NCBI RefSeq assembly: GCF_037975245.1 | Contig: NC_092562.1 | Location: 21,655,054 to 21,719,053 of the forward strand | Origin: Apostichopus japonicus | Taxonomy: Eukaryota; Echinodermata; Holothuroidea; Aspidochirotida; Stichopodidae | Reading direction: 5' to 3' | Length of the DNA: 64,000 nt | In this document: in pieces, positions 17,678 through 58,100 of the stretch | Numbering within the stretch: position 1 is the first letter of the stretch | Layout: each line of letters begins with the position of its first letter | Position numbers and translations under genes: made by a program | Notes under the pieces: model-generated | The model's database searches: none | The model's input: the letters and a program-made list of their open reading frames with translations, nothing else | What the model was told of the DNA's origin: nothing

Positions 17678-17859
17678 TTATATCAATAATGATTCTCCTT
17701 GTCCATCCTCCTTGTCTGTTCCGATGTTCTGGTATGAATAAGCAGAGAACAGACGACCGGGACTCTTGACAGAATTGACCAAAGTCGGTTTTCTATTTGT
17801 CCACTCGATGAATGACTTGTACTTCATATACAAAGAGGATGATATCGAAACCGAGTCTC
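17678..17859 (-). CDS. NAGLU: NAGLU exon 19, terminal exon
   Basis: Begins [20 protein letters not shown], matching the human GDTVDLAKKIFLKYYPRW end. About 37 residues follow that have no counterpart in human NAGLU, ending GESLLI and TAA. Its acceptor and first 12 bases also form one edge of the 81-bp minisatellite. Confidence 0.88.
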
Positions 17860-20800
17860 CTGGATTGAGATAAACAAAAGAAATATTTGATTTTGAAGGG
17901 ATATTCCACACTGTGATGGTATGACTGTAATATAGATTACAATATTATTAAACTGAGTCTCCTAGGATAGGATGAGTGAAGGGATATTCTACACTGTGAT
18001 GGTACGACCTATATAGATTACAATATTAGTAAACTGAGTCTCCTAGGATGGGATGAGTGAAGGGATATTCTACACTGTGATGGTACGACCTATAGATTAC
18101 AATATTAGTAAGCTGAGTCCCTTAGGGTGGGATGAGTGAAGGGATATTCCACACTGTGATGGTACGACCTATATAGATTACAATATTAGTAAACTGAGTC
18201 TCCTAGGATGGGATGAGTGAAGGGATATTCTACACTGTGATGGTACGACCTATATAGATTACAATATTAGTAAACTGAGTCTCCTAGGATGGGATGAGTG
18301 AAGGGATATTCTACACTGTGATGGTACGACCTATATAGATTACAATATTAGTAAACTGAGTCTCCTAGGATGGGATGAGTGACGGGATATTCCACACTGT
18401 GATGGTACGACCTATATAGATTACAATATTAGTAAACTGAGTCTCCTAGGATGAGATGAGTGACGGGATATTCCACACTGTGATGGTCCGACCTATAGAT
18501 TACAATATTACAATCTGAGTCTCCTACGATGAGATGAACAAATGAAAGGTTTAATGGGATAGTCCACATTATGAACAGTGGATGATGTTATTGATAATTC
18601 ATATGATTGAATGCAAGATAGGAAATGCTAAATGCGACATTTCTACACTATCAAATACGAAAAATGTTATCAACTTCTCAATTGATTTTGATGCAAAAAA
18701 GAAATGCTAAACAGGTCACCATTACACTTTAAACTATGGATAGAAAATGATGGAACTGGCTAGGATTGGATGGGATGGGAAGCAAAAGAAGAAAATTTTG
18801 AAAGGTGCATTCTACAGTATAAACTAGGATGACAATAATGCTTAAGATTGGAAGCAAACGGGAAATATTCACAGCTCTGGTATTATATACTATAAACTAT
18901 TGATATGGATTCTTTTATTTCATAGTAATACCAAAATGACATGCTGTGTTTTAATTATCAGGGGGCTGATACAAACCTTGTGGAACAGTAGGGTACAAGT
19001 CCCTTGCAAATGTCCAGTTTGATTCCACCTGTAGACTCATGTTGTTGAAAGTTGTCCTGTCAAACTTGGTATGACTGTAAACACAATCCTGAATATAGTT
19101 AGCGAAAAGCCGCCATCTTGAGTAATAGTAACTGTAATTTTAAAGGAGCAACAAAAAAACAAACACAGTAAAAAATAATCATAATAATTGGGTAGGTCAA
19201 GTATAAACATAGCTATTAAATTTTAAGCTGACCAGACATTTTTTGCTTCAGCATTAGTTGTTGTAATACAATATCTGAAAGTAATAATCATAAAATTTAA
19301 AACATTTTGATGGTTAAAACAGATCTTGGTAGCTCTAGATATTTCTTGGATACTTTCAATTTTTCAATCAACCAATATTCTCTTGATTTCATATATACAA
19401 TGGAGAGCACACATAGATGTCTTCCAATGCCATGTGTTGTCGAGAAAGTTTGTTATACTGTTTTAACAATGTTATTTTGAGGCTAAAAGTCTTACGATTT
19501 CTCCACTGATTCTAGACTGAGAGCAGCAGATATCAATTACTACTGCGATAGTTAAACAGATTAAAATCTGTTAGGAGATGTCATTAAATGCTGTTATCAC
19601 CATCCATCCTCTCTGACCTGCAACACCCTTTTCAACATAACCTACCCTACACATATCCCAAAATCTGTATCGATACCTCATCGTTACATTCTACCAATCC
19701 CTACCTCCCCCTATACCCAACTGTCCCCTCTCCATAACCCCCACTCTCTCAATTAACCTACCCTCCAACGACACCTTCCATGCTTTTCAAAACTGCACCA
19801 TACTAATCATAACATTTTACGTTACACGACTGTTGAGTACTTTCATATCTTAACAGGATTTGTAACAATATCACTTTTATGTTTACAACATTATCATTGC
19901 TTCGGTTGGTACCTTTTAAGGGGTTCAAAAAGGAAGATAATAAAACCTTCCAAATTAAATCAAACAGCTAATACATATTTAAGCAAGGACACCAATCATT
20001 CAAATGTGCATGTTTTTTTCATTTCCCTACTTTCCAAAGAAAATTCAATGTTCTAGTATATTTACTTACCTTCCCAGCAGACCACCCCATTCCTTATTGC
20101 CGTAATCCAATATCTGACAAGAAGAAGAGATATACTGTCAGTCTTTTTACCAGTCTTTCTTAAGCCCTCCATGATCCTCCCCCCCTCCTCCCTCCCCCCA
20201 CAGAAAACCACTATTGAGATATCTACTGCCTTCCTATTCATCTTGTACAATTGACCTTCCACCCATATAAAGAAGACAAATCATAAACTCAATCACATTT
20301 GCTGGTACTATTAAAATCTTAATAACATAATATTTTTTAAATAATTTTGATAGTACTTCAACTTTATCCTGCACTAAAATTCTACTATGACGTACATAGC
20401 TCCTTAGCTTAGTGAGTCACGTTTTATTTCAAGCAATGAACCAAAGGTCAACCTTTTTGGGCATATCCCATTTTCATATCTGGTGAATATTTATGTAAGA
20501 AAAAGGTACGAGTGACGCAATGTTGAGCTACAAAGCAAATTCATTAATTACTTCCTCCTTCACCATTGTTTTTGGAATATTCTACAAGCTTGATTAATTG
20601 CAACTTAATGTTGAGTACAAAGTCCGAGGGGTTTGGCAAAATTGCCGGTGAAACTCTAAAAAAAAAGAGCTTCTTTTTCTGGTTAGAGTTTGATGTCATT
20701 CACACATTACCACTTCACTGCACTCCCAGAGTTGACAACCCTCTGACGTTACAAAAAAAAACACTGGTATATTTCTTATTTAATTGTGTGGTTAGACATA

Positions 20801-23800: not shown

Positions 23801-26800
23801 AGAAGGTTGCAATGTATTACATATTCGAAATGTGTCTTCAATAGCTTGTGAGTTCTCACATGGTGCATATGGCTAGTGTGTATGCACACACAGATACATA
23901 CATACAAACAAACACTAACATTATTAATCTAATAAACTAAAACAAAGGACATTTTCCTTTGTCTCTGTCAACTTGAAGTTCTTTTTAAGAATGTGACCAA
24001 CTCTATTTCATTGTTTGGAAGAGATTTATTTATCTAACAACATTTCAACCCATCTTATGTTATATTTGAATGATTTTGAAATATTGACCAAAGGTGAACA
24101 GGCAACGTAAGCTGTTCATTGTTGTATGAATATAATGTTAGGGTAAGATTGCAAGTTCAAATATGGTCTCAAAGTTAATGCTGCAGGAATGTAACATGGC
24201 GTCCTTCTGCAAAATGCTCGCTTCTACACGAGCTAAAACGATTAGTTAACAAGAGTGCATTTCCTGACAACCCTGTTGTTGTGGGACGGTCAAATCTTGT
24301 TCTTATATTTTGTCAATTCTGACCTGAAGAGGTCACTTCCGCTGCACTGGTTTTCTGCCCTCAACAATGACTTCCATGCTTTACCGACGCTCCTCCAGTC
24401 ATACCAGACCTTAAGATGGAAGTTAAAACAGGTTTGTTTAAAATGATGTTAAATCGTTCATCATCATAAACACCAACAATAACTTTTTGGTGATAAAAAT
24501 AACAACAGTCGTTACTTCCTACAAGAATTAATTCTCAAAAGTTCAAAAGGCAATCAATTCATCAATTCACTTTAAAAAAAAAATATATATTTAAAACAGG
24601 TAACAATTCCTGTCCTGGACAGTATCTTACTTCTATTTATTTAAAACAAAAAGCAGCATACAGTTGATCAGAAAAAAACTGACAGATCACAGATAGCAAC
24701 CAGACTAAACTGTAGATACTTACGTTTGGAGCAAGTTTAAGGCTGGGTCTCTGTACAGGTATGCCATGGTTATGGTCGCTATGCGTATCCAAGCAGTTGT
24801 AAATGGTGGTGGATAGTAATTGCCAAGCATCGTTAATGTCCTCGTTGCTGACACCATAGCGATTCCTCGAATAATTCCCGACCCTAGCGATGACAAGATG
24901 AAGATGATAATCCAGATAGAAATAGAAATCATAATAATAATTATAATAATAAAAATAGAAATTCCAGAATAGAATAATAAAAATAGAAATTCCAGAAAAA
25001 CCAAATTTTACAATCAGTGATTACTAGTTAACATTGAATAATGACATACCAAACTGTAAGTGGGTTCTCTATCAAAGGGGGAGGAGCTAAAATTACCCTT
25101 TATTGTAAGAAATATCATTAAAGAGTAAATTTTTTTTCACTTTTTGAGTGGTAAATAATATATCACCTGGCTTTGCATAAGGTTGAACAATACCGTTACA
25201 CTACTCTAAACAAAAGTAATTCTTTAATTCCATCAGAGAAGCTGATGACTCATTAAAAAATCGGCTTTGCGATATTGGTACTAACGTAATGATAATGATA
25301 AAAACCCATCCATTTTATCTGATATTGAAGGGCTGCTGCCTGACTTTACAAATTTAAGAAAACCTCATACCTTGCCAAAATAAAGAATACAAACGTTCTT
25401 CTACTTTAAACACCATTCTTGCAATCTCAATTCAAACAGACACAATTGAACCTTACTTTGGTTGCTTAAATAATTACCCTTACATAACATATTAATGGCT
25501 AATGTGGGTTTTTTTTTTATGTTGTTTTAATACTCCATTTAATGAATATCTTTCATAATTTTAAATGGAATGCAAAAGAACAAGTAACAATAACTCAGCA
25601 AATAATTAACGCAATCACAACAAACGTATGAACAAGAACCTTTTCAAGTGTTTAAACAATCTTGCACAATTCATAGATATTTATCTCCATTCAACAAACC
25701 CAAGCATTCTATTTACCTAATTCTTTCTTGCTTAGTTTAAAATTAGATTTTGATTGAGATCCTCAAAATGGAATGCGAGAGTGGAAAAGAAAATACACAT
25801 TTCAACTGTTTTATATAGATATTCAACAGTTTATATAAATATTCAATAGTCTATATAAATATTCAGTAGTCTTTATAAATATTCAGTTCATACCATTCAG
25901 GAACATTCAGATGGTCACCTCTAAATGTAAGGCTATTGAAGAAGTTATAGATGAAATCATTCTGTTCTATTCCTTCTGGAGTGGTTCCCATGCCAACCAT
26001 TGTACTACCTTCAAAGAGCATAGCTTCAAACGGACCCTGTCGACGATGAAAAGAATATTCTACATGACGGATCCATACTGTGGTCAATATTTATCCCCAG
26101 GGTTGATCATAAAATAGAGGTGTTGATGAACCCCATAAGGTCAATCGGGGTTACATTAAGATTTTCGGTTCAGAGCTGACAACCAAAACACAAAAATTAC
26201 AATGACTTTCATCACTTACAAATAAAACTCACAAATCTCCAACCAATCATGAATAGATTTGTTAATGTTCATCAGGCAGATCCATTTATACTGATGATTG
26301 TCTTCAAACTGGAAATTGGGATCTCAAAACCACAGTTCTTGCATTCCAAAAGATGATATTCTGTGAAATGAGCAAACTCTGTTTCACCCTCAGCAAATTT
26401 TTACCTTGTTAACTGCATCCATCCTTCCATACAATCCATGATTTCCACCAAAATTATGCAGCATACACCAGATGAACGGTTGTCCATAAAACGATTTGGT
26501 TGACAGGTAGATAGGGACAGTCTCTGCGGCCAAGTCCAAGACGATCATCCGACCCTTCGAGATACAAGAAGTAAATTACTCTTGAAAAATGATCAGATTC
26601 GACTCAGCCTACACCCTTGGTAGATTTACTTCATCAAGACAATCTTCTACCCTTCAAGATACAAGAAGTAAATTACTCTTGCAAAATGATCAGATTCGAC
26701 TCAGCCTACACCCTTGGTAGATTTACTTCATCAAGACAATCTTCTACCCTTCAAGATACAAGAAGTAAATTACTCTTGAAAAATGATCAGATTCGACTCA

Positions 26801-29800
26801 GCCTACACCCTTGGTAGATTTACTTCATCAAGACAATCTTCCACCCTTCAAGATACAAGAAGTAAATTACTCTTGAAAATGATCAGATTCGACTCAGCCT
26901 ACACCCTTGGTAGATTTACTTCATCAAGACAATCTTCTACCCTTCAAGATACAAGAAGTAAATTACTCTTGAAAATGATCAGATTCGACTCAGCCTACAC
27001 CCTTGGTAGATTTACTTCATCAAGACAATCTTCTACCCTTCAAGATACAAGAAGTAAATTACTCTTGAAAATGATCAGATTCGACTCAGCCTACACCCTT
27101 TGTAGATTTAATTCATCAAGACAATCTTCCAACCCTTCAAGATACAAGAAGTAAATTACTCTTGAAAATGATCAGATTCAAGTCAGCCTACACCCTTTGT
27201 AGATTTAATTCATCAAGACAATCTTCCAACCCTTCAAGATACAAGAAGTAAATTACTCTTGAAAATGATCAGATTCAAGTCAGCCTACACCCTTTGTAGA
27301 TTTAATTCATCAAGACAATCTTCCAACCCTTCAAGATACAAGAAGTAAATTACTCTTGAAAATGATCAGATTCGACTCAGCCTACACCCTTTGTAGATTT
27401 AATTCATCAAGACAATCTTCTACCCTTCGAGATACAAGAAGTAAATTACTCTTGAAAATGATCAGATTCAACTCAGCCTTCACCTTTGTAGATTTACTTC
27501 ATCAAGACAATCTTCCACCCTTCGAGATACAAGAAGAAAATTACTCTTGAAAATGATCAGATTCAACTCAGCCTACACCCTTGGTAGATTTAATTCATCA
27601 AGACAATCTTCCAACCCTTCAAGATACAAGAAGTAAATTACTCTTGAAAATGATCAGATTCAACTCAGCCTACACCCTTTGTAGATTTAATTCATCAAGA
27701 CAATCTTCTACCCTTCGAGATACAAGAAGTAAATTACTCTTGAAAATGATCAGATTCGACTCAGCCTACACCTTTGTAGATTTACTTCATCAAGACAATC
27801 TTCTAACCCTTCAAGATACAAGAAGTAAATTACTCTTGAAAATGATCAGATTCAACTCAGCCTACACCTTTGTAGATTTACTTCATCAAGACAATCTTCC
27901 AACCCTTCGAGATACAAGAAGAAAATTACTCTTGAAAATGATCAGATTCAACTCAGCCTACACCTTTGTAGATTTACTTCATCAAGACAGTCATCCGACC
28001 ATTCGAGATACAAGAAGTAAATTACTCTTGAAAAATGATCAGATTCAACTCAGCCTACACCCTTTGCAGATTTACTTCATCAAGACAATCTTCCAACCCT
28101 TCAAGATAAATTTCTCTTGAAAATGATCAGATTCAACTCAGCCTACCTACACCTTTGTAGAGTTACTTCCTGAATAAAATGACACAAACAGACAGCATCT
28201 TAACATGAACAAATTGCTAATGCCAAATACAGCATAAAAAATTTGCAAAACTAAATGGAAAAAGTAGAAGTAACTTCCAAGTAGAACGTTGAAATTTATG
28301 TTGTATTTATATCCATCCTTAATTCTCTTCATGAGGATCACAAAAACTAATCATTTTTCATGAGATGTAAACCGACTATTGTGTGAAAAATAGTGCGGTG
28401 TGGGTAATATAGCATAGTACTCGGTCAAAAGATGGAATTTAAACTTCCTGACAGAAGATGTGTTTAACAAAGCTACCTAGAGAATAAATTTACATGTAGG
28501 GCAAACTGAGTAGCTTGTAACCTCAACATAAAAAACATGTGGCAATCAACCTGAAAGCTAAACCTCCTTTGGTTTATTTCCCCTCAAGTTGGAAGAGACT
28601 TTCCTTTGGGCCAAAACTTGTTGATTGCTCCTAAATGAAAAAAACAAGCCACCTTGCTATAGCCAGCCATTGATGGAACTCAACCTGTTCCAGGGAATAA
28701 TTTAAGTCTTCAAATTTTGTGTAGCATTTTTGAAGGCACTGAACTTTGTCTTTTATAAAAACTATGGTGCCTGTCTAGCAACAACTGCTATACATCTGTG
28801 GACTTGTATAGCAACTTCACCACTTTTTGTAGCAATTTGCGATGATTCGATGCTGAATTAATTAGTCACCGTGTGCCATAAATTGTATTGCTTCTAAAGC
28901 CTGCAGCTTTCATAAAATTCAACCATATATCGTCTGACATTCTGTATGGTACTACCACAACCATCTTTTGACTAAGTGGTCGAACTGGGCTCGTATTTGG
29001 ATGTTTACCTCTGGGACTGCTTGAAGGAGAGCCTTTATCTGCAGCTGGCCCCAGAACGGAGATCTGAATAACCAGCCCTGCATCAGCCAAACAGCTTTAG
29101 AGTCGTACATGGTCATTCCTTTGAAGACACCCGCGCTGACATTTCTCAGGTAGGAGGGGTCACTAGAAATATGGAAATTAAATTGGTTAATTGGTAGACA
29201 AGCTTAAACCTCTCCAATCACAACCCCGAGGTGATTGGATATTATCATTGCTTGTTACAGTCTTGTGACATTACAAACTAAAATTAATTACTTGAAAATA
29301 ACTCATTATTTATTGGGGAAAAAATAATATATACACTCCTAAAGTGTGAAGTTTATGAAAGATTTGACTAGTTTGAAGCAGACCTTTAGGTAATGTTTGA
29401 TACTTTAGTACAACTACTAAACCTTTAGATACATTTTTTTATGTAACTACTTACAATTATTTATCCAAAATACCCTCTTTCTCAACTCAACCCTCCCCCC
29501 CCACACCTTTTCTTCTAAGCCCAATGTCTCAAAATTATTGAGATATCTTACCTTGATACAGGAGTCATCTCATTAAAGGTATCAGCATTATAGATATGAT
29601 CCAGATCGCCATACTCTTCCTCTTGCTAACATACAAAAACAGAAGAAACCAATAAAATTTACACCCAACTACTTGTTTTTGCTGATGGGGTGAAACAGTT
29701 CAGTTATTAAAGGAAGCATCGTACCATGCTCCAAGTGTCAAAGGAACTCATCAAATGAGGTTACATGGACCATTCACTACTAGAGAATGGGGGAGGGGAG

Positions 29801-32800: not shown

Positions 32801-35800
32801 TCTTCCTGATCTTATATTATCTCAATCTAATATCGCACCATCCAGTACTGTATAATAATGCACATCAATCGTCACTAAGGCATTGTGTTAAAAGTCTGAG
32901 GCTGAGGGGGCTGCAGCATCACTGCAGCTATTCTGTGCAGGACATAATCCTTTATGCTCTTCAGGCTTCACACAATATGCCCTGCTGCTGGTCTGCAGAA
33001 ATAATTTTTATTGCTTGACATCTAGAATCAGCCTAGCTGAAGCTTTCCTTTTTGACACAGTGACTAATCAAATTGTACAATGATTGACATTCTCCTAACT
33101 TTACAGCACAAAATGGCACAGAGTAAATGCTGACACACTTTAGAGTGCTGTATATTTACACTTTGTGAAACACACTGTTTTTTATGCAAGGCCCATTAAA
33201 ATAACAAAGTATCCTCTAGTATAGGAATCTAGAGTATCCAGATATCTCTCTTCTCAACATTTCTACTACATCCAGGTTTTTACCATTTTACCATACATTT
33301 ACCATAGGTTTACCATAGGTTTACCATAGGTTTACCATACCATACGTTCTGACACACTCAAGTATGCTATGCATTCAATCAATTAAAAAGTATTGCCAAC
33401 TCTGAATTACAGATTTTTGTCTAATCTGTCAAACTTTTGATAGTTTCAATACAACACTACATCTTAAATAGTCCTTCTTTGACTAATGAAGCCCAAAATG
33501 CTAATTAATTACTGTTCCCTGATTTATTAGTTGGAGATGTGAACAGCTATCATACCAGGCAAGAAATGCAGGACCTCCAAAGTGTTTGTCCAAATCCTCC
33601 TGAGTAAGCCCCATCTTGAGGTAGACCTTCTGCCAAATAGCTTCTTGACCATTGAATGCTAGTGGTAAATTGAAACCATTCAGGGCCATCCAATCAATCT
33701 CCTGTTCCCAGCGAGTCCAGTTCCACCAGGTGAACGAATAGCTGGCTGTACAGACGTTCTGATAGTACCTGAATCTGTGTTTGATAACCCAATATTTGAA
33801 GGAATCAATGGCTGCCAGATTATGTGACACTATAGTCACAGGAAGGCAAACAATTTTGTCAGAGAACTGGTAGAACAGCCTTAAGGGGAAGGAGAGATTC
33901 GTTCACAAGTTACCTGCCATCCACAACAACGAGCTAACCACCTCCCCCCCCCCCGCCCTCCCCAACTTCACCTATTCTTAGCGAAAATTGTAATACCAAC
34001 ATTAGGAACAGTGTTCAATACTGATACAGAAGGATTGGTTCAAAAGTAAAAACATAAAAGCTAAGTAAATGTATTAATAAGTCATAAAAATAACTACAAA
34101 TTCCTCCCTCTCCTCCCAAATGAAACCATGTTGTTACATATCCCAGCTTGCAGTGCAATAAATCAGTGGCGGCGGAACCGGGGGGGCTTGGGGGGGCTCA
34201 GCCCCCCCAATGAAAAAGTTGAGGGGGCAAATGCATGATAAGCCCCCCCAATATTTACCAAGGCTCCGAAACGTGCATCTGCCCATTTTTCAATGCATAC
34301 TTGTCGATCTGTCCGATGCACACGTATACTATATAGGTGTAATAATTTTAGTAATTGCTGGGGGACCCTGGTCCCTCGGCCCGTCCCCTGGCTATAGACC
34401 ACATTGTCACCCCAACCGCGTCTTCACACCCCGTGAAAAGTGGAAGCAGTGAGTGTGAGTACCGGTAAGCGTAACACAACTTCGTCTTAGGCCAATGACT
34501 TGCCTCATTTCAGCCAGTTCTCCAACATCCCCTTACTTAGTGGCGGAGCGTCCATATATACAGTCAGGGGCGGATTCCCCCCCCCCCCTCCTGACGGACT
34601 CAAATGGACTGCTGGCGCCCTTTTCAGCTTTTCACTACTTTTAACTTATTCGCGATTATTGACTATTTTATTGCGCTCTCATATACCTATTGACATTTGT
34701 CATATTCTGTTGGTGTAATTTTCCGACAAAATGGCGACGACACCTATTTATTCTCCGTTTATCTGCAAATTAGCAAGGCCCGGAAAGGGTCATTTCCTGC
34801 AATCTAGGGAGTAACTTATACTCAAAAAATTTCTGTACGCTCCGCGCCAACCTGTGGTGGCGCTCCGCTTAGATAGTGTCGAAAGCGCCCATACAGACCA
34901 TTCTTGCCCCCCCCCGACCAATTCCCCTAGCTCCGCCACTGCCCTTGCTACACTCAAAAACGTCTTTGCGAGTACACTACGAGTAATAGCTACTCTCTTA
35001 AAACACCATCGAATATACAAGTTACAATGTTTTTACAGACTTTTACGTGCAATCTGAGAAATTGCAGGCTTGAGACCCATATTTTAGGGCTAGGTATTCA
35101 CAGCATAAAACACTCGGGAAGTGCCGTTTCCGGCCATCTGGGGGTTTGAAAAAAACCCAAAATTTTCTTGTACGCTCCGCGCCAACCAATGGTGGCGCTC
35201 CGCTTAGATAGTCTCCACACATTAGCCCCCCCAATAATTTTTCCGTTCCGCCACGCCTGCAATAAATAGTAGAAACAGAAGCACTATATGTGAATGTGAC
35301 ACTAGTCTGTAACACAAGGGTCGCAAGAAACAAAGGGCAAATTATTGCCAGAACTTCTGCTAGTAAAAACCTTCCTCCACACGTTACCTTTGAGGACTTG
35401 TGACGTTAACCTGACCAGATTTGATGACAGGAAGCTTGCCAGGATCTGGAAGATGTATTCGATTCCCTGACCATGAAATGTGCCCTCCGAATAAGTCGGT
35501 CAAGACATAGTAAAAGCCACGTGCTGCAGCTACTCCGGTATTAGCTTTGATGGAGATCGTTGAGCCATTTGAAGTTACCTTTTAGTATCAAACATGAATA
35601 TTCATTAGTATAACAATCCCCTCCTTAAAAGGTGTGAAGACTCGCCCACAAAGAAACATTTTATGCCGGTAATCTGATCTAGTTTCGAATGAGGTGTAAC
35701 AGAAGTGTTAGACACCACCATCGATACGAGAAAATACACACGCAGCTTGCTACCGTAGGTAATTAGACACTAATGTACAGTCAGTACATACAGCTGCGGT

Positions 35801-40702: not shown

Positions 40703-43700
40703 GTTAGAGAACTTTTATGTTTCAATGCCACAGTGTTAATGCTTTATCAAATTGGTATGTTAACTAGTTTCCACAAAAGTCGTCTCGGTGGTCAGGACAT
40801 TTCATGCCCAGGAATAACAACCAGGACTGCTACTCTGATGCCAGTGAGATAAGTTGTTTCTGGTGCAATATAAAAAAAACATTTTTGTTAAATTCAGGTT
40901 AGCAAACTTTTACCCCACTATTTACTCTGTAGATATTATTACACTAGAAATTATCTGGACCAGGTGATATTGGAGAGGAGTGCAGTACATTCTTATGGAA
41001 TAAATGAAATCTATGTCAATTGCTGGCCCTGAGTATGGCAATATTCATGAGTAAAACATATTTTCAGTTTTGCAGATTTAGACAAGAATTTTTGAAGTAC
41101 TTAATGTGTTATTGTCAGACTTTAATATCAAACAATTTTTCTGTTCCATTTTGTAAACCACTGAAACGTGTAAGTTGCCATTTGTGGTCTGGGGATGTGG
41201 GGGGGGGGAGGGGGAGTGTTGGTTGCCTTCTTGGGCTGAAAGGTTACAAAATGTTTTGGGTTTGACAACTGTTTTCATTAGGTTCCAAATGCTACTGTAA
41301 ACTAGAGAAATAAATTGTAAAATCCACAACTTTATGTTGCAATAGGTCCATTGTTTCTTCTTCTTATTTTATCTTTATCTTTTTTTGTTGTGTTAATCTT
41401 CATGTTTCCTCTAACATGCTTCTAGACATCTTTGTTCGTTATATCAAAAAGCTTCATAAAGATATTAGTAAACTATTTCTGTCTTATAATTTATAACAAT
41501 TTGTAATCATTTACCACATCTATAGGTACTTGGTGGTAAGGCAGCCCAGCGTTTTGGAGGCAGGGCAGTTCTGGGCATTGCTGTGGCATGCTGGTCCTTA
41601 GCAACTTTCATCACTCCTGCGATTGCCTCTCAGGTTCACGCAGTCATCTTTACCAGGATCATACTGGGATTCGCGGAGGGCTTTTGTCTTCCGACAATTT
41701 TTCATGTCTTTTCCAGCAGCATATTGTTAGAAGAGCGTTCGAAGGCTTTCGGATATTTAGTGGCAGGTGGCTCTGTGGGTCAATGCTTAGCGTCAGTGGT
41801 AAGATATTTCCTGGTTTCCATGACAATTGCAATGCAATCGTGATGTCATGTATGTTTGTGCGTCTTTCCTTGCTTGCAGACTGGATATCTCAAGAAGAGA
41901 AACATCAATGGACATACTTGGTATATCTATGCTCTGATATTTTGATTCCAAAAACCCTGTTGTTTTTGGTGAGCCTGAAAGGTCAAAGGTCAAGATAGGT
42001 CTATAGAGAGGTCTTGATGCAAAAAACTTGTTACAAACATATCATATGAAGGAACAATTGCATGGATGTCAATACTCAGTATGTTGGTACCCCCATGTTG
42101 ACTACAAGATCTTAATTGTTTTCAATACAGTCAAAGATTATGTGAGGTCAGCTTGTAAATGTAATATCTCAATAGTGGAAGCTTGATCAGATCTTATACT
42201 TGTTATGTTGATGTCATTATTGAGTAGCCAAACAAAAGATTCCATATTATGTCGACAGAATTCTCGATGCCTTTGCATATTGTTGTAAATGTTGCCTTCT
42301 TATAATAGTATATGTTATCTGAATTCCCCCCCCCCACCTCCCCCAAGATGGTTCCATCATAATAACATGTACCAAGTTTGAGAATATTGTATACTACTGA
42401 ATACAACGCATCCAATAATCGTGTGTGATATTATATATTTTTTTCAATTTGTGTTATTCTTTATAGATCTGTCCATATATGAGCTGGCCTAACATGTTTT
42501 ACACATTTGGTGCTATCGGTCTGGTATGGGTCGTTCTCTGGTTTATGTTGTACAGCAAGAACATGGAGAGTCTGACCTCTGACCCACAGAAGCTCATGGA
42601 ACAAAAGGTGGGCGCAATTTAACCCAGTCTGGTATATTACCATGGCAACACTTACAGACTTGTAAACAAAATTTGAAGTTTTGAAAGATATTTAATATAA
42701 GAATTTATATAAGATATAAGAAGGCAGTGATATTCATTTGGGCACCCCAGAAAAATGTCACAGGTGTTTAGTTTTGCGTTCTAACGAAAATGCTAGCATA
42801 TTTTGAGTTGTGTGTTCCGTAGAAATCTTTACCTTTCAATGAAGCATACCAACATCTAACTTTAAGGTCAACTGCCCAGATGGTGCCACACCGAATCAAA
42901 CAGATATTCTCTAAATATGTTCTGTTTTTTTTTCCCCGTTTTTTTGTAGGTCGATACCACAGATCAGGTCAGTTGGAGGAGTTACCTATCACATCGCCCT
43001 CTGTGGGCTATATACACCGCTCATTTCTGCATGAATACCTCGAATTATATCATCAGTACCTGGCTGCCGACGTATCTCCAGAAGACGCTCGGAGCTAACC
43101 CACGTGACGTCAGTTTCACTGCGTTGCCTTTCATTGCCAACTCCATCGTTGGTGTAGGTGAGAACCGGCTATTGCTCTTGTTTTTTTTCTGTTAAGAGCA
43201 GGTCTTTGGTTTAATATCAATTGCTGTGACAAAAAAAGGAATATATATTATGATCGTGCTTATTTGTTATTTATTTGTTTATGTATTTATTTATTTATGT
43301 ATTTGTTAATTCTTATTTAGGAAGTTTCCGTACTATTCCTCCTCCTCCCCCCCCCCCCCCCCCGAACGTTGACAGAAAGTAAATAGTATAGAGCTGACAG
43401 CATTAAGATTTTGCAGTCTCTATTTTAGTCCAAACTTGAAAGGAGATTGAAATGACTTTGACTTGTTTCACTGCACGCCATTCAATGTAGTTGTGCGACT
43501 TGTACGATCAAATAAATTGAAAGGCAAATAGATGTGATAGGTTCTGTAGTGTAGTTAATTCAATAACCTATGTGGCTACTTTGATCAAATTTATTTGAAC
43601 CAAGGGCAATGTTTCTCTCTCTCTCTCTCACCCTCACCCACTCCCCCCCCCCCCCAACCCCCTTCATTTTGGCCAGATGTCACTCTCATAGGTAAAGGTT

Positions 43701-46454: not shown

Positions 46455-46677
46455 CTGGATTCTTCTTTAACCTTTTTTTTTATTGAAGGATAAGTCGATA
46501 GCGAAACTCACCGTAACTTGAGTGTCTCAGCTATGGTTATATTTCAGAAAAGATAAAAGTGCTTTGGAATGTTGATGGCAGAGAGCAAAGCACTGCAGGG
46601 GCCATCCTATCCATCATTGGGTAGTGCTAGCTTGGATGCTATGTCCTTGAAAGTTCACTTTTTGACAACTTTGAAAT

Positions 46678-47205
46678 ATGAGTGCCATAAACTACATATA
46701 TGAGTACCATAACCTACATGTGTGAGTACCACAACCTACATATAGGAGTACCACAAACTACATGTATGAGTACCATAACCTACATGTATGAGTACCATAA
46801 CCTACATATATTAGTACCATAACCTACATATATGAGTACCATAACATACATGTATGAGTATCATAACCTACATGTATTAGTACCATAACCTACATGTGTG
46901 AGTACCACAACCTACATATAGGCGTACCACAAACTACATGTATGAGTATCATAACCTACATAAATGAGTACCACAACCTACATATATGAGTACCATAACC
47001 TACATGTATGAGTACCAACACCTACATATATGAGTACCATAACCTACATGTATGAGTACCATAACCTACATGTATGAGTACCACAACCTACATGTATGAG
47101 TACCATAACCTACATGTATGAGTACCATAACCTACATATGTGAGTACCAAAAACCTTCATATTTATATGAAGCATATGAATTTATAACCTACATGCATTA
47201 GTATC
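46678..47205. repeat. 22-bp minisatellite, TATGAGTACCATAACCTACATG
   Basis: About 22 copies of a 22-bp unit alternating ATG-TATGAGTACC and ATA-TATGAGTACC variants. The copies degrade after about 47150. It begins about 550 bases after the transporter stop codon and 220 after its candidate poly(A) signal. Confidence 0.95.
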
Positions 47206-54488: not shown

Positions 54489-55163
54489 AGTGAAGTGTTC
54501 GGTTTCGATATACCTGATATCGGAAATATCTGCTATTTTTCTGTTCCTTCAACCAAGTTTTGTAAAAGCCATTATAAGAGGTTGCAATATTTCTACACCA
54601 ATAAATTAACTGTGTCTGAATTTTAGAAAATTTCCTCACCAACATTCTTCATCATACTTTCCTCTACTCTTTCAATTTTGACCGGTCTGTTAGGGGTTCA
54701 AGGAGGTTTTTCTATATTGGTTGTCTATAGATTGAATTTTGTGCAACATTATGGCTATGTTTTCAAGTGATTTTATTCACGAGAAAAGTGAATTTTCAAA
54801 TTCTCAACAAGTAATGGGCTTAAAACCTTCAAAAGTGGGGCTTTCGGATATTGTGGGCCGTGACGTAGAATAACCTACAAAAGCAATCATCCATAGGACA
54901 TGCAATCAGGTCGAACATGATGTGTGACTGGTGACAATCTTCAAAAAGGTTATGGATGGAAAAAACTTTTGGGAAATACTTGGTTCTCAGGCAAAAGTCT
55001 ACATCTGGTTGCTCATTTCCAAGCCCGAGAAGTGCCATTTCCGGTGATCTGGGGGGTATCAAAACCAAAAATTTTCTTGTACGCTCCGCGCCAACCGATG
55101 GTGGCGCTCCGCTTAGATAGTAATTCGCGCCCCCCGGGTTAGAAAATCCTGGATACGCGCCTG

Positions 55164-58100
55164 ATAATCACACATATTGAATTATCGTGTCCCTATGTTT
55201 GCTACTGCCTACATGCACGCCAGGTTACCCTGTGTTACCCTGGTGACATTCAGAGGCACCGAATTCAGACATTCTATCATTTGATGAACAACCACCAAGT
55301 TTTACCCGATCAGGCTTATTCTTGAAGGATGGGGTGGGGTGAAGGGGGAGGGGAGGGGTACAGATAATTTGCATTGATATCACCGACACCTATTCAATTT
55401 TTTCAGCATAGCCTGGTTACAATTTTTGAGCTTTAAGAATTCAAAGAGCAATATTAAATAAATAATAAAAGACCATGAATAAAAAATATGGATGAATCAT
55501 CATCTAATGTTATCGAATATTGTCCATGCACTCATGATGAGACGTTCCACCCTTTCTTAAGGTTTGTCTTTAAAACAAGGTCTTTTCAGAATGAGAGAGA
55601 GAGTGAGTTGTATAGGGCCAACGAGTCACTTCATTTCACGGTCGAGTAGAAGTCATTGACTAGAGTCACTGTGTTATTTCTATTGGGACATAACTTCACA
55701 TTCTTCTTCGAGTCACTTGAATTTTAAAACACCCCCTCCCCCCTAACCCACTGATCCCTTCTCTAGAAAAAATATCAATCTGTGTCACTGTCGCAACGAA
55801 GCTTTAATATCACGTCATTTCGCTATTTGGGATTAGGTTTAATGGTTTAGTTGTTCAAGTAAGTTGTATCGATATCTAAAACTGCCAGTTAGGACAATTT
55901 CCTAATGCTAATCCCACTTTATACTGTCCTCCCATACCACCCTTCAAAGCATTCACACTGCCAGTACAAACAGTTTCCTAACCTTGATCTGATAGAAGCC
56001 TGATATTCCATACTGCTCATACTGACACTACGAGTGCTCTGGGTTGGGAGATAACAGCACAGTAAGGTAAAAAAAAATGCCCAACTGTGTGATTTACAAG
56101 TGAGGTTCAGTGAATATGCATGATTTATTATTCATTCAACCATCGCAATCTTCCCGTCATGCACCATTTACAATAGCGATATATGTGTGTGTGAAGTGAT
56201 TGAAAGTACAGAAATTACATACCGGTAGTGATAAATGTCCTCAATCGTGTTAAAACGGTTAATCTTCGATCGGTTAGGTTATCCGCTTACCTCACCCCGC
56301 TCCCCACCCCGGTAACGGGACCAGGTTGAGAGTGGACCAAGTTGTCTCTTAAAAAGTACCGTGGTGCATATGCGCTACTAAAGCAGTTTTTTCTTCTTCT
56401 TTTTAGCTTCACTGTTTGTGTTTAGGTATAGGCAATATTTACTCAGTTAATATGGAAGGCCATTCGTGCATGCTTAAATTTACCCCGTGATTAATTATAA
56501 TACCAAACAGACATTGTTATCACTTTCACCTTCGCCGATTTATTCTCTCCCGAACTTTACTGAGAAAAGTAAACGTACGAGAATGAGGGCAATATTTTCC
56601 AGAATTTTGCAAGTAATTTTGTTCAATAAAAGACCAGCCCCTGCTGTAGGCCAGATTTGTTGTCGTTAAATAATAAATACACTAGTCGATTCAGCCCTAA
56701 GGATATACACGAGTGACTCAAACCTCGACTTTCTATCTATCTATGATCCCATTCAAATTGATTTCCTTACTTCGAAAACTAGAAAACAAGGGAGAAGTGT
56801 TGTTTCAAATATCGAAACTACTACCACAGATTTGTGTTATCTACTTCATTGGATCAACACAATACCGTTAAAGATTTTCTTCGTAAAGCAATTTCATATC
56901 TTGTTCCGTAAATGATAACATGTTGTTTATTTTATTAAAAAAGGCAGATTATCCAACGGGGTGTTTTTAAAATTCTTTCGTTTTATATTGATTCCTACAT
57001 AAGAGTGAAAGTATTTTGGTAATTTATTTCAAACAGTACATTTTACACTTTCATGGAATTACATTCATCGAGATTCCGGAGATTGACACAGAGATATGAA
57101 AAGCATAATAATACCTTGGGTTGTTTGTGATTATAGGGAAAACCGTCCATTATCTACTATCTACATAAAAGTATAGAGCCTCGAAGCATTGTTCAAACAA
57201 ATGAATATAATTAAATTTTCATCGCATGCCTGTACTCGACAAGGTAGTCTTCGCCATAGGAACAAGGAACATCACCATAATGGCCACGTGAATATTCTAG
57301 CATAATCTAGCATAAATGCCGTATCAGTTGCACCTTGAAGACAAAAGTCTTCCAAAGGGTATAAGCCTTCAACGAGAACAGCGACCCCGAACCCCACCCG
57401 CCCCTGACCTATAAACTGGCATATGACCCCACATCCCCAACCATATACCCACTTCTCCTACATAAATCCCATTTCGGTTATCTCGATTAAATGAACATGG
57501 TAATGTTCTAATTCTAACCCTTTCGACTATGAACATATTCTGATATAGTTGCTTAGTGTCCCACCCAAGCGGACCCAAACCGTCATAGCCAAAATGGTAC
57601 TACGAACTCAAACAGACTCCCACAAACACCGAAACCATAGCAACAAACATCTCCAAGTCCCCGCCTAGGTCGCACCATTCAATACCTATAGTTTGAAAAC
57701 GAAGTTTTAAACCTCCTTATAAGAAATTGTTAGTTATTAAACAAAATTTGGTAAATTAATATCCTGGTGAGTGTATACCTTTTTCTCCTTAATTACTATG
57801 CATATAGTAACATGATACTGTATTGCGCTCTACGTGTGTGTCCCTTCTCTTATAACGATACAGTTGTTACCGTCCTCACACACACACGTATTCGACCTAC
57901 CGACCCCGTTTTCATTTTATCTAAGAAAATGAAACCTGGTTTTGTGTCTTAAACGTTGCTATAAGAACTGATGTCACTTGAAAATTCACTTGAAACCTTC
58001 CGTGAACTTGAAAACCAAAGTTTTGCATTCAGGTGTTTTGAACGTTATAAAAATTATTACACTATTTGCTCAAACAATGTAGGCTACGATATTAAGAAAT

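Follow-up and report, generated by a model that had tools for sequence, protein, structure and literature searches.

Decoy 3′ splice sites copied from an intron-exon border in a sea-cucumber NAGLU gene

How does a gene keep to its right 3′ splice site when 16 near copies of that site stand ahead of it in the same transcript? The question is raised by a 64,000-nucleotide stretch of the Apostichopus japonicus genome (contig NC_092562.1, positions 21,655,054 to 21,719,053), called here the window, in whose numbering the NAGLU coordinates below are given. On the minus strand, an intron of NAGLU carries a minisatellite (array 1, 26537..28169) in which 16 decoy 3′ splice sites precede the real acceptor, each unit including 18 exon-derived bases. 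Tandem copies of a splice border of this kind are known from amphioxus as mirages. We consider it probable that array 1 is such a mirage, chiefly a by-product tolerated in a genome rich in minisatellites rather than a regulatory device, and that the last acceptor is chosen by exon definition.

The array and its source exon

The exon that follows the array (26405..26554, minus strand, 150 nt, its translation ending in AVNK) was identified by a PF05089 match and by alignment with human NAGLU, and ends at the donor AAG/GTAAAA at 26404 (a slash marks the splice junction throughout). It opens with GGTCGGATGATCGTC (GRMIVL), first base 26554, the real acceptor AG ending at 26555. The exon before the array (DPSYL...QAVPE, 29009..29166, minus strand, with an approximate start) was placed by frame, alignment and donor score; its donor GAG/GTAAAC opens the intron at 29008. 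Once joined, the translation matches human NAGLU (4xwh) with an E value of 2e-145, and the alignment crosses the junction, opposite human AVPR-GRLLVLDLFAE. Moreover, the eighth codon back from the real exon reads TAA in frame, and the proposed acceptor is the sole AG after this stop. Because of this alignment through the junction and of the upstream TAA followed by a single AG, the exon starts, as far as homology can tell, at 26554 in phase 0, so that the gene identity and the exon start given by the first-pass annotation of this DNA both hold. Since human NAGLU aligns through the junction, the exon is old and was the source of the copies in the array; the opposite course, an exon born from the array, is ruled out, as the opening codons of the exon have counterparts in human NAGLU. 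A NAGLU duplicate was also considered and set aside: a PF05089 search, of a kind that can miss copies, gave four matches, all inside the window.

Array 1 was delimited by Tandem Repeats Finder (period 97, 17.0 copies, 94% matches), unit positions, exon identity and alignment. Seventeen near-identical acceptor positions follow one another at 95-98 nt spacing, the 16 decoys running from 28099 to 26652 and the real site standing at 26555, and each unit repeats the acceptor of the real exon, as had been claimed. The earlier count of about 16 decoy acceptors is right for the positions and too generous for the sites, because the AG is retained in 15 of them. The single exception in the unit listing, decoy 2 at 28001 (28000..28003, minus strand), reads TCTCGAAT (AAT/G); the sequence after it is nonetheless the best-kept exon copy, with 16/18 bases identical to the real exon start.

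Whether the likeness of the units really extends into the exon was the check by which the border origin could stand or fall. The 18 nt after the decoy agree with the exon start at 15/18 positions in units 1, 3, 6, 9, 10 and 11 and at 14/18 in unit 4, which together with unit 2 makes eight units at 14-16/18; the remaining eight, in which 1 nt is deleted, give gapped scores of 13-14 against the first 18 nt of the exon. Elsewhere on the same strand, over 56 kb, the best identity to the exon start is 12/18 (six positions). The next 18 nt, by comparison with the exon bases past 18, agree at 1-3/18 positions only, in all 16 units. The homology border is sharp at exon base 18, given the high scores before it and the low ones after it, and the exon inclusion of about 19 bases first proposed is thus real and one base shorter. 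Because each unit carries 18 exon bases, after which the likeness ends, the array, judged from its sequence, grew by duplication of a segment spanning the intron-exon border, in agreement with the origin first suggested.

Where the array ends distally, direct reading gives TTCAGGAAGTAACTC in the intron against GATGAAGTAAATC in the units; the founding segment had its other end here. Units 9 and 10 are identical, as are units 12 and 13; on the proximal side, unit 16 is just two columns away from units 12-15, and the most divergent units are the distal ones, 1 and 2. Identical neighbours together with divergent distal units are a usual pattern of tandem-repeat turnover. A genome search with the array 1 unit, which skips very common words, returned 17 matches, all within the array; a mobile or satellite repeat is ruled out by this confinement to one locus.

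Choice among the acceptors

Splice sites were scored with matrices made from 46 acceptors and 44 donors called in the same genome; as the training sites were the candidates with the best scores around exons matched by Pfam, those of the NAGLU loci among them, the percentiles are rough. The real acceptor reaches 5.7. Of the 15 decoys with an AG, 14 lie at 5.7-7.6, and only the most distal one (28099) falls under 3. Since nearly all AG-bearing decoys equal or exceed the real acceptor in score, local sequence cannot separate it from them and context must decide.

We propose the following course. A segment of about 96 bp, from the intron interior to 18 nt into the NAGLU exon, would have been duplicated in tandem, and the copies would then have multiplied and been homogenised via unequal exchange or slippage, protein constraint holding the exon-side copy and leaving the others to drift. 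The previous exon would be joined to the last acceptor, the only one to face the real donor across a normal 150-nt exon, and such cross-exon recognition is the best explanation of acceptor choice. The flanking introns, 2,454 nt upstream and 368 nt downstream, both exceed 250 nt, which would suit exon definition. According to a human survey (PMC9225289), where flanking introns are long, pairing tends to join the sites nearest each other over the exon. This was clearest for 5′ sites; for 3′ sites the upstream preference of short introns is significantly reduced with long ones (PMC9225289). Intron length and survey fit the use of the last acceptor, a fit rather than a proof. What is observed in support is the border-spanning homology, the confinement of the array to a single locus, its block-wise homogenisation and decoy scores like that of the real acceptor; that the array is tolerated, since no site but the last would define an exon, is what we infer from them.

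Several points weigh against this explanation. The rough matrix ranks the real acceptor low, at the 15th percentile, and five intron AGs outside the repeat units proper score higher (7.9-8.3), one of them sitting at the distal array edge (28169). In the classical two-site experiments of Reed and Maniatis, the upstream 3′ site was preferred (as cited in PMC9225289). Finally, exons that began at a decoy and ended at the real donor would measure 247 to 1,694 nt against the real 150 nt, and those from decoys 16, 15 and 14 (247, 344 and 441 nt) are not clearly too long; some leak into decoy acceptors is therefore likely.

With the previous exon read on into each decoy in phase 0, every one of the 16 frames comes to a stop in eight codons or fewer: seven after eight codons (GRMTVLMK among the readings), eight after five codons (GRRLS or GGRLS, then TGA) and one after a single G, at TAG. 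The early stops that had been predicted are thus found in every frame. Their supposed dependence on 96- or 97-bp unit length is not: the stop reached tracks a 1-nt deletion, GGTTGG to GGT(A/G)G, and the 97-bp units 14-16 give the five-codon form. A transcript using a decoy would accordingly be wasted or decayed.

Alternatively, decoys could be regularly used and lower NAGLU output through early stops and nonsense-mediated decay, the copy number tuning the level. The stops in all 16 frames and the decoy scores matching the real acceptor are in line with this, as is the variable number tandem repeat (VNTR) of human ABCA7, whose longer alleles accompany lower expression and more exon skipping (PMC5954066). 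The ABCA7 isoform that retains a repeat unit is, on the other hand, unchanged with array length (PMC5954066), and the acceptor tracts of array 1 are not obviously better kept than their surroundings in the unit: the columns that vary are 3/20 in the last 20 nt, 9/60 in the middle and 6/18 in the exon-derived part. Arrays at splice borders are, moreover, no commoner than chance in the survey described below. Regular use of the decoys appears unlikely on this balance. A broader proposal would have mirages standing in sea-cucumber genes at a few percent of junctions, splicing there depending on cross-exon recognition together with self-silencing of decoys, the length of the NAGLU array setting a small heritable leak into decay; we regard it as doubtful.

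Self-silencing taken alone supposes that a donor-like word GAA/GTAAAT, 22-23 nt past the acceptor in ten units, makes splicing factors hinder each other on a pseudo-exon that is too short, a fate which the last acceptor escapes. Ten such words, located by alignment and score, lie at 26629..28078 on the minus strand, in units 1-4, 7 and 12-16; they score 7.3, at the 41st percentile of called donors, and units 12-16, which adjoin the real exon, all keep the word. Six units (5, 6, 8, 9, 10 and 11), however, lack it, reading GAATTAAAT where the word-bearing units read GAAGTAAAT, and nothing shows these six to be used. The word, besides, stems from the founding intron segment, so that no selection is needed to account for it, and we find this explanation improbable. 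Recursive splicing at AGG/GTAGAA was considered as well; the donor score there is low, at the 11th percentile. That the exon likeness arose by chance or that the array is an assembly error is scarcely credible, even in a genome where minisatellites fill 9.0% of the surveyed noncoding bases (14,240 of 159,000, at 53 loci), against exon identities well above the 56-kb background, units that differ from one another in a structured way and an A. japonicus assembly, close to this one, built from HiFi reads (PMC10344927).

With 16 natural near-equal 3′ sites ahead of the real one, the question of what marks the right splice site becomes directly testable in a living gene.

A second NAGLU array and arrays at other junctions

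The same gene contains an array of 81-bp units (array 2, 17894..18537, minus strand), recognised by Tandem Repeats Finder, alignment and border-word matches, with eight decoy acceptors. It lies just ahead of the last recognised NAGLU exon (17679..17859, minus strand), which was placed by alignment with human NAGLU and whose acceptor AATCCAG/GAGACTCGG ends at 17860; the protein alignment runs through this junction, opposite human QPR-GDTVDLAKKIFLKYY. Five of the eight decoys read CATCCTAG/GAGACTCAGTTT, where the real last exon has AATCCAG/GAGACTCGGTTT. For this array, matching the border word AGGAGACTCGGTTT is a better test than gapped local alignment, which gives a moderate score of 18 to the junction, a value also reached by 1 of 2,201 other windows of sequence. 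At 13/14 positions or better, over the whole window and both strands, the word is found in six array 2 units and at the real junction only, and one place outside them reaches 12/14. The 81-bp array is a second mirage in NAGLU, copying the acceptor of the last exon. Six of its eight decoys meet a stop within five codons of the join, and the other two read about 30 codons first. If the exon at 17679..17859 is indeed the last, transcripts using these decoys would not be subject to junction-dependent decay and would encode a truncated protein. Elsewhere in the gene, a 20-bp array (25812-25885) lies no more than some tens of bases from where the exon that follows the real array 1 exon ends, and could be a degenerate donor-side mirage.

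The survey of other junctions took in 69 exon-centred loci of five Pfam families (13 + 15 + 15 + 16 + 10), among which no acceptor-side mirage was seen. Arrays over a donor junction were found in a pair of aldehyde dehydrogenase paralogs (L013 and L014), an ABC transporter (L049) and a sugar transporter (L071). The paralogous arrays (L013, 1727-2743; L014, 453-1524) lie on opposite strands about 1 Mb apart on contig C22; they concern the same exon, identical at 227 of 234 bases, and differ in unit spacing. The real donor excluded, GT is kept in 11/18 and 11/19 of their decoy donor words. The ABC-transporter array (1179-1502) has 2.2 copies of a 145-bp unit and begins at the exon donor. In these three loci, inclusion of exon sequence is weak, with about 3-8 exon bases shared, compared with 14/15 in the sugar transporter. 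There, a 40-bp segment is present in two copies over the donor (exon end near 1698, reverse strand), reading TTTTTAGACCTAGAG/GTGAGT and TTTTTAGACGTAGAG/GTAATT, and the duplication looks like a mirage at its start. A 50-bp array starting about 50 bp past the matched exon of another locus (L070) was inspected and left out as uncertain.

Before junctions were counted, the NAGLU loci (L001-L004) were dropped together with the 16 kinase loci, which consist mostly of a single long open frame, and the 53 loci left were scored for arrays with a period of at least 20. The two aldehyde dehydrogenase paralogs are not independent; there the script took a decoy donor as the junction, the real and the decoy donor both lying inside the array. 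Four of 88 distinct called junctions fall in arrays, against 7.9 expected (P(≥4) = 0.96, P(≤4) = 0.10). Border arrays are thus no commoner than under random placement, perhaps rarer. As junctions are not enriched, a neutral by-product is favoured over a border-directed process, and the count suggests that such arrays form where minisatellites are abundant and that borders are not specially targeted.

Some other features were noted. Of nine frames of the window, Pfam recognised NAGLU and MFS_1 (41526-41840); the seven left without a family include the last NAGLU exon. A 22-bp array of 21.5 copies lies at 46677-47149. Open frames at 35046-35405 and 54832-55167 (minus strand) have a common VGAERTRKF stretch and look like copies of one interspersed repeat. 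Contig C29 contains, at roughly 14.7-31.2 kb, several pieces of COX1 that include TGA codons; it is thus the second contig to hold DNA of mitochondrial type, the other being the mitochondrial contig itself, C35 (16,099 bp). The gene order of C35, taken from translations, is cox1-nad4L-cox2-atp8-atp6-cox3-nad3-nad4-nad5-nad6(reverse)-cytb ... nad1-nad2, the family model having matched cox1 only. This order is the one typical of sea urchins and sea cucumbers.

Mirages and comparable systems

Mirages are an established class in amphioxus, described in Adh3 and in the globin genes BflGb6 and BflGb9 (PMC3087553), to which PGBD5 was added in a report that also cites troponin C (PMC3902484). They are tandem, minisatellite-like copies of a splice border with AG or GT in many units (PMC3087553, PMC3902484). 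To judge from its sequence, NAGLU array 1 carries the structural features of this class, namely an array at a border, exon as well as intron bases in the unit and AG in many units. The likeness goes further: the amphioxus examples include an acceptor-side form in BflGb6 and a donor-side form in BflGb9, both sides being also seen in the sea cucumber (PMC3087553 for amphioxus). In amphioxus the inner units are homogenised and the edge units divergent (PMC3087553); in array 1 divergence is greatest at the distal edge, and unit 16 on the proximal side stays close to its neighbours. Array 1 differs in size, with 16 decoys against 3-6 repeat units in two BflGb6 haplotypes (PMC3087553). The echinoderm host and the presence of two arrays in one gene also set NAGLU apart, as does the fact that its arrays are known here from DNA alone. 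The class itself was already known; what is new is the sea-cucumber host, the second mirage in the same gene and the donor-side arrays elsewhere, and NAGLU carries mirages from amphioxus to an echinoderm.

Regular splicing is reported to be undisturbed by the amphioxus mirages (PMC3087553). Such arrays also offer raw material from which introns could be gained, a role proposed for the amphioxus globin examples (PMC3087553). In intron gain by internal gene duplication, likewise, a duplicated splice border makes spare splice sites (PMC3087553); the NAGLU array differs in bearing no sign of a decoy turned into a real exon edge.

A search of the open-licence literature, judged for the most part by its listed entries, gave no report of mirages outside amphioxus, though the human ABCA7 intron 18 VNTR is mirage-like. 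It is a minisatellite adjoining an exon, its unit contains a splice site and its alternative products stop early (PMC5954066). It differs by its donor-side position, its 25-bp unit and its measured effects on expression and exon skipping; copied exon sequence is not described in the parts of that report drawn on here (PMC5954066). A further counterpart is the competition between 3′ sites in experiments, those of Reed and Maniatis among them, and in human genes (as cited in PMC9225289), where near-equal sites stand in tandem and position and exon context decide between them. The NAGLU case differs in being natural, and in setting 16 upstream competitors, instead of one, before the real acceptor.

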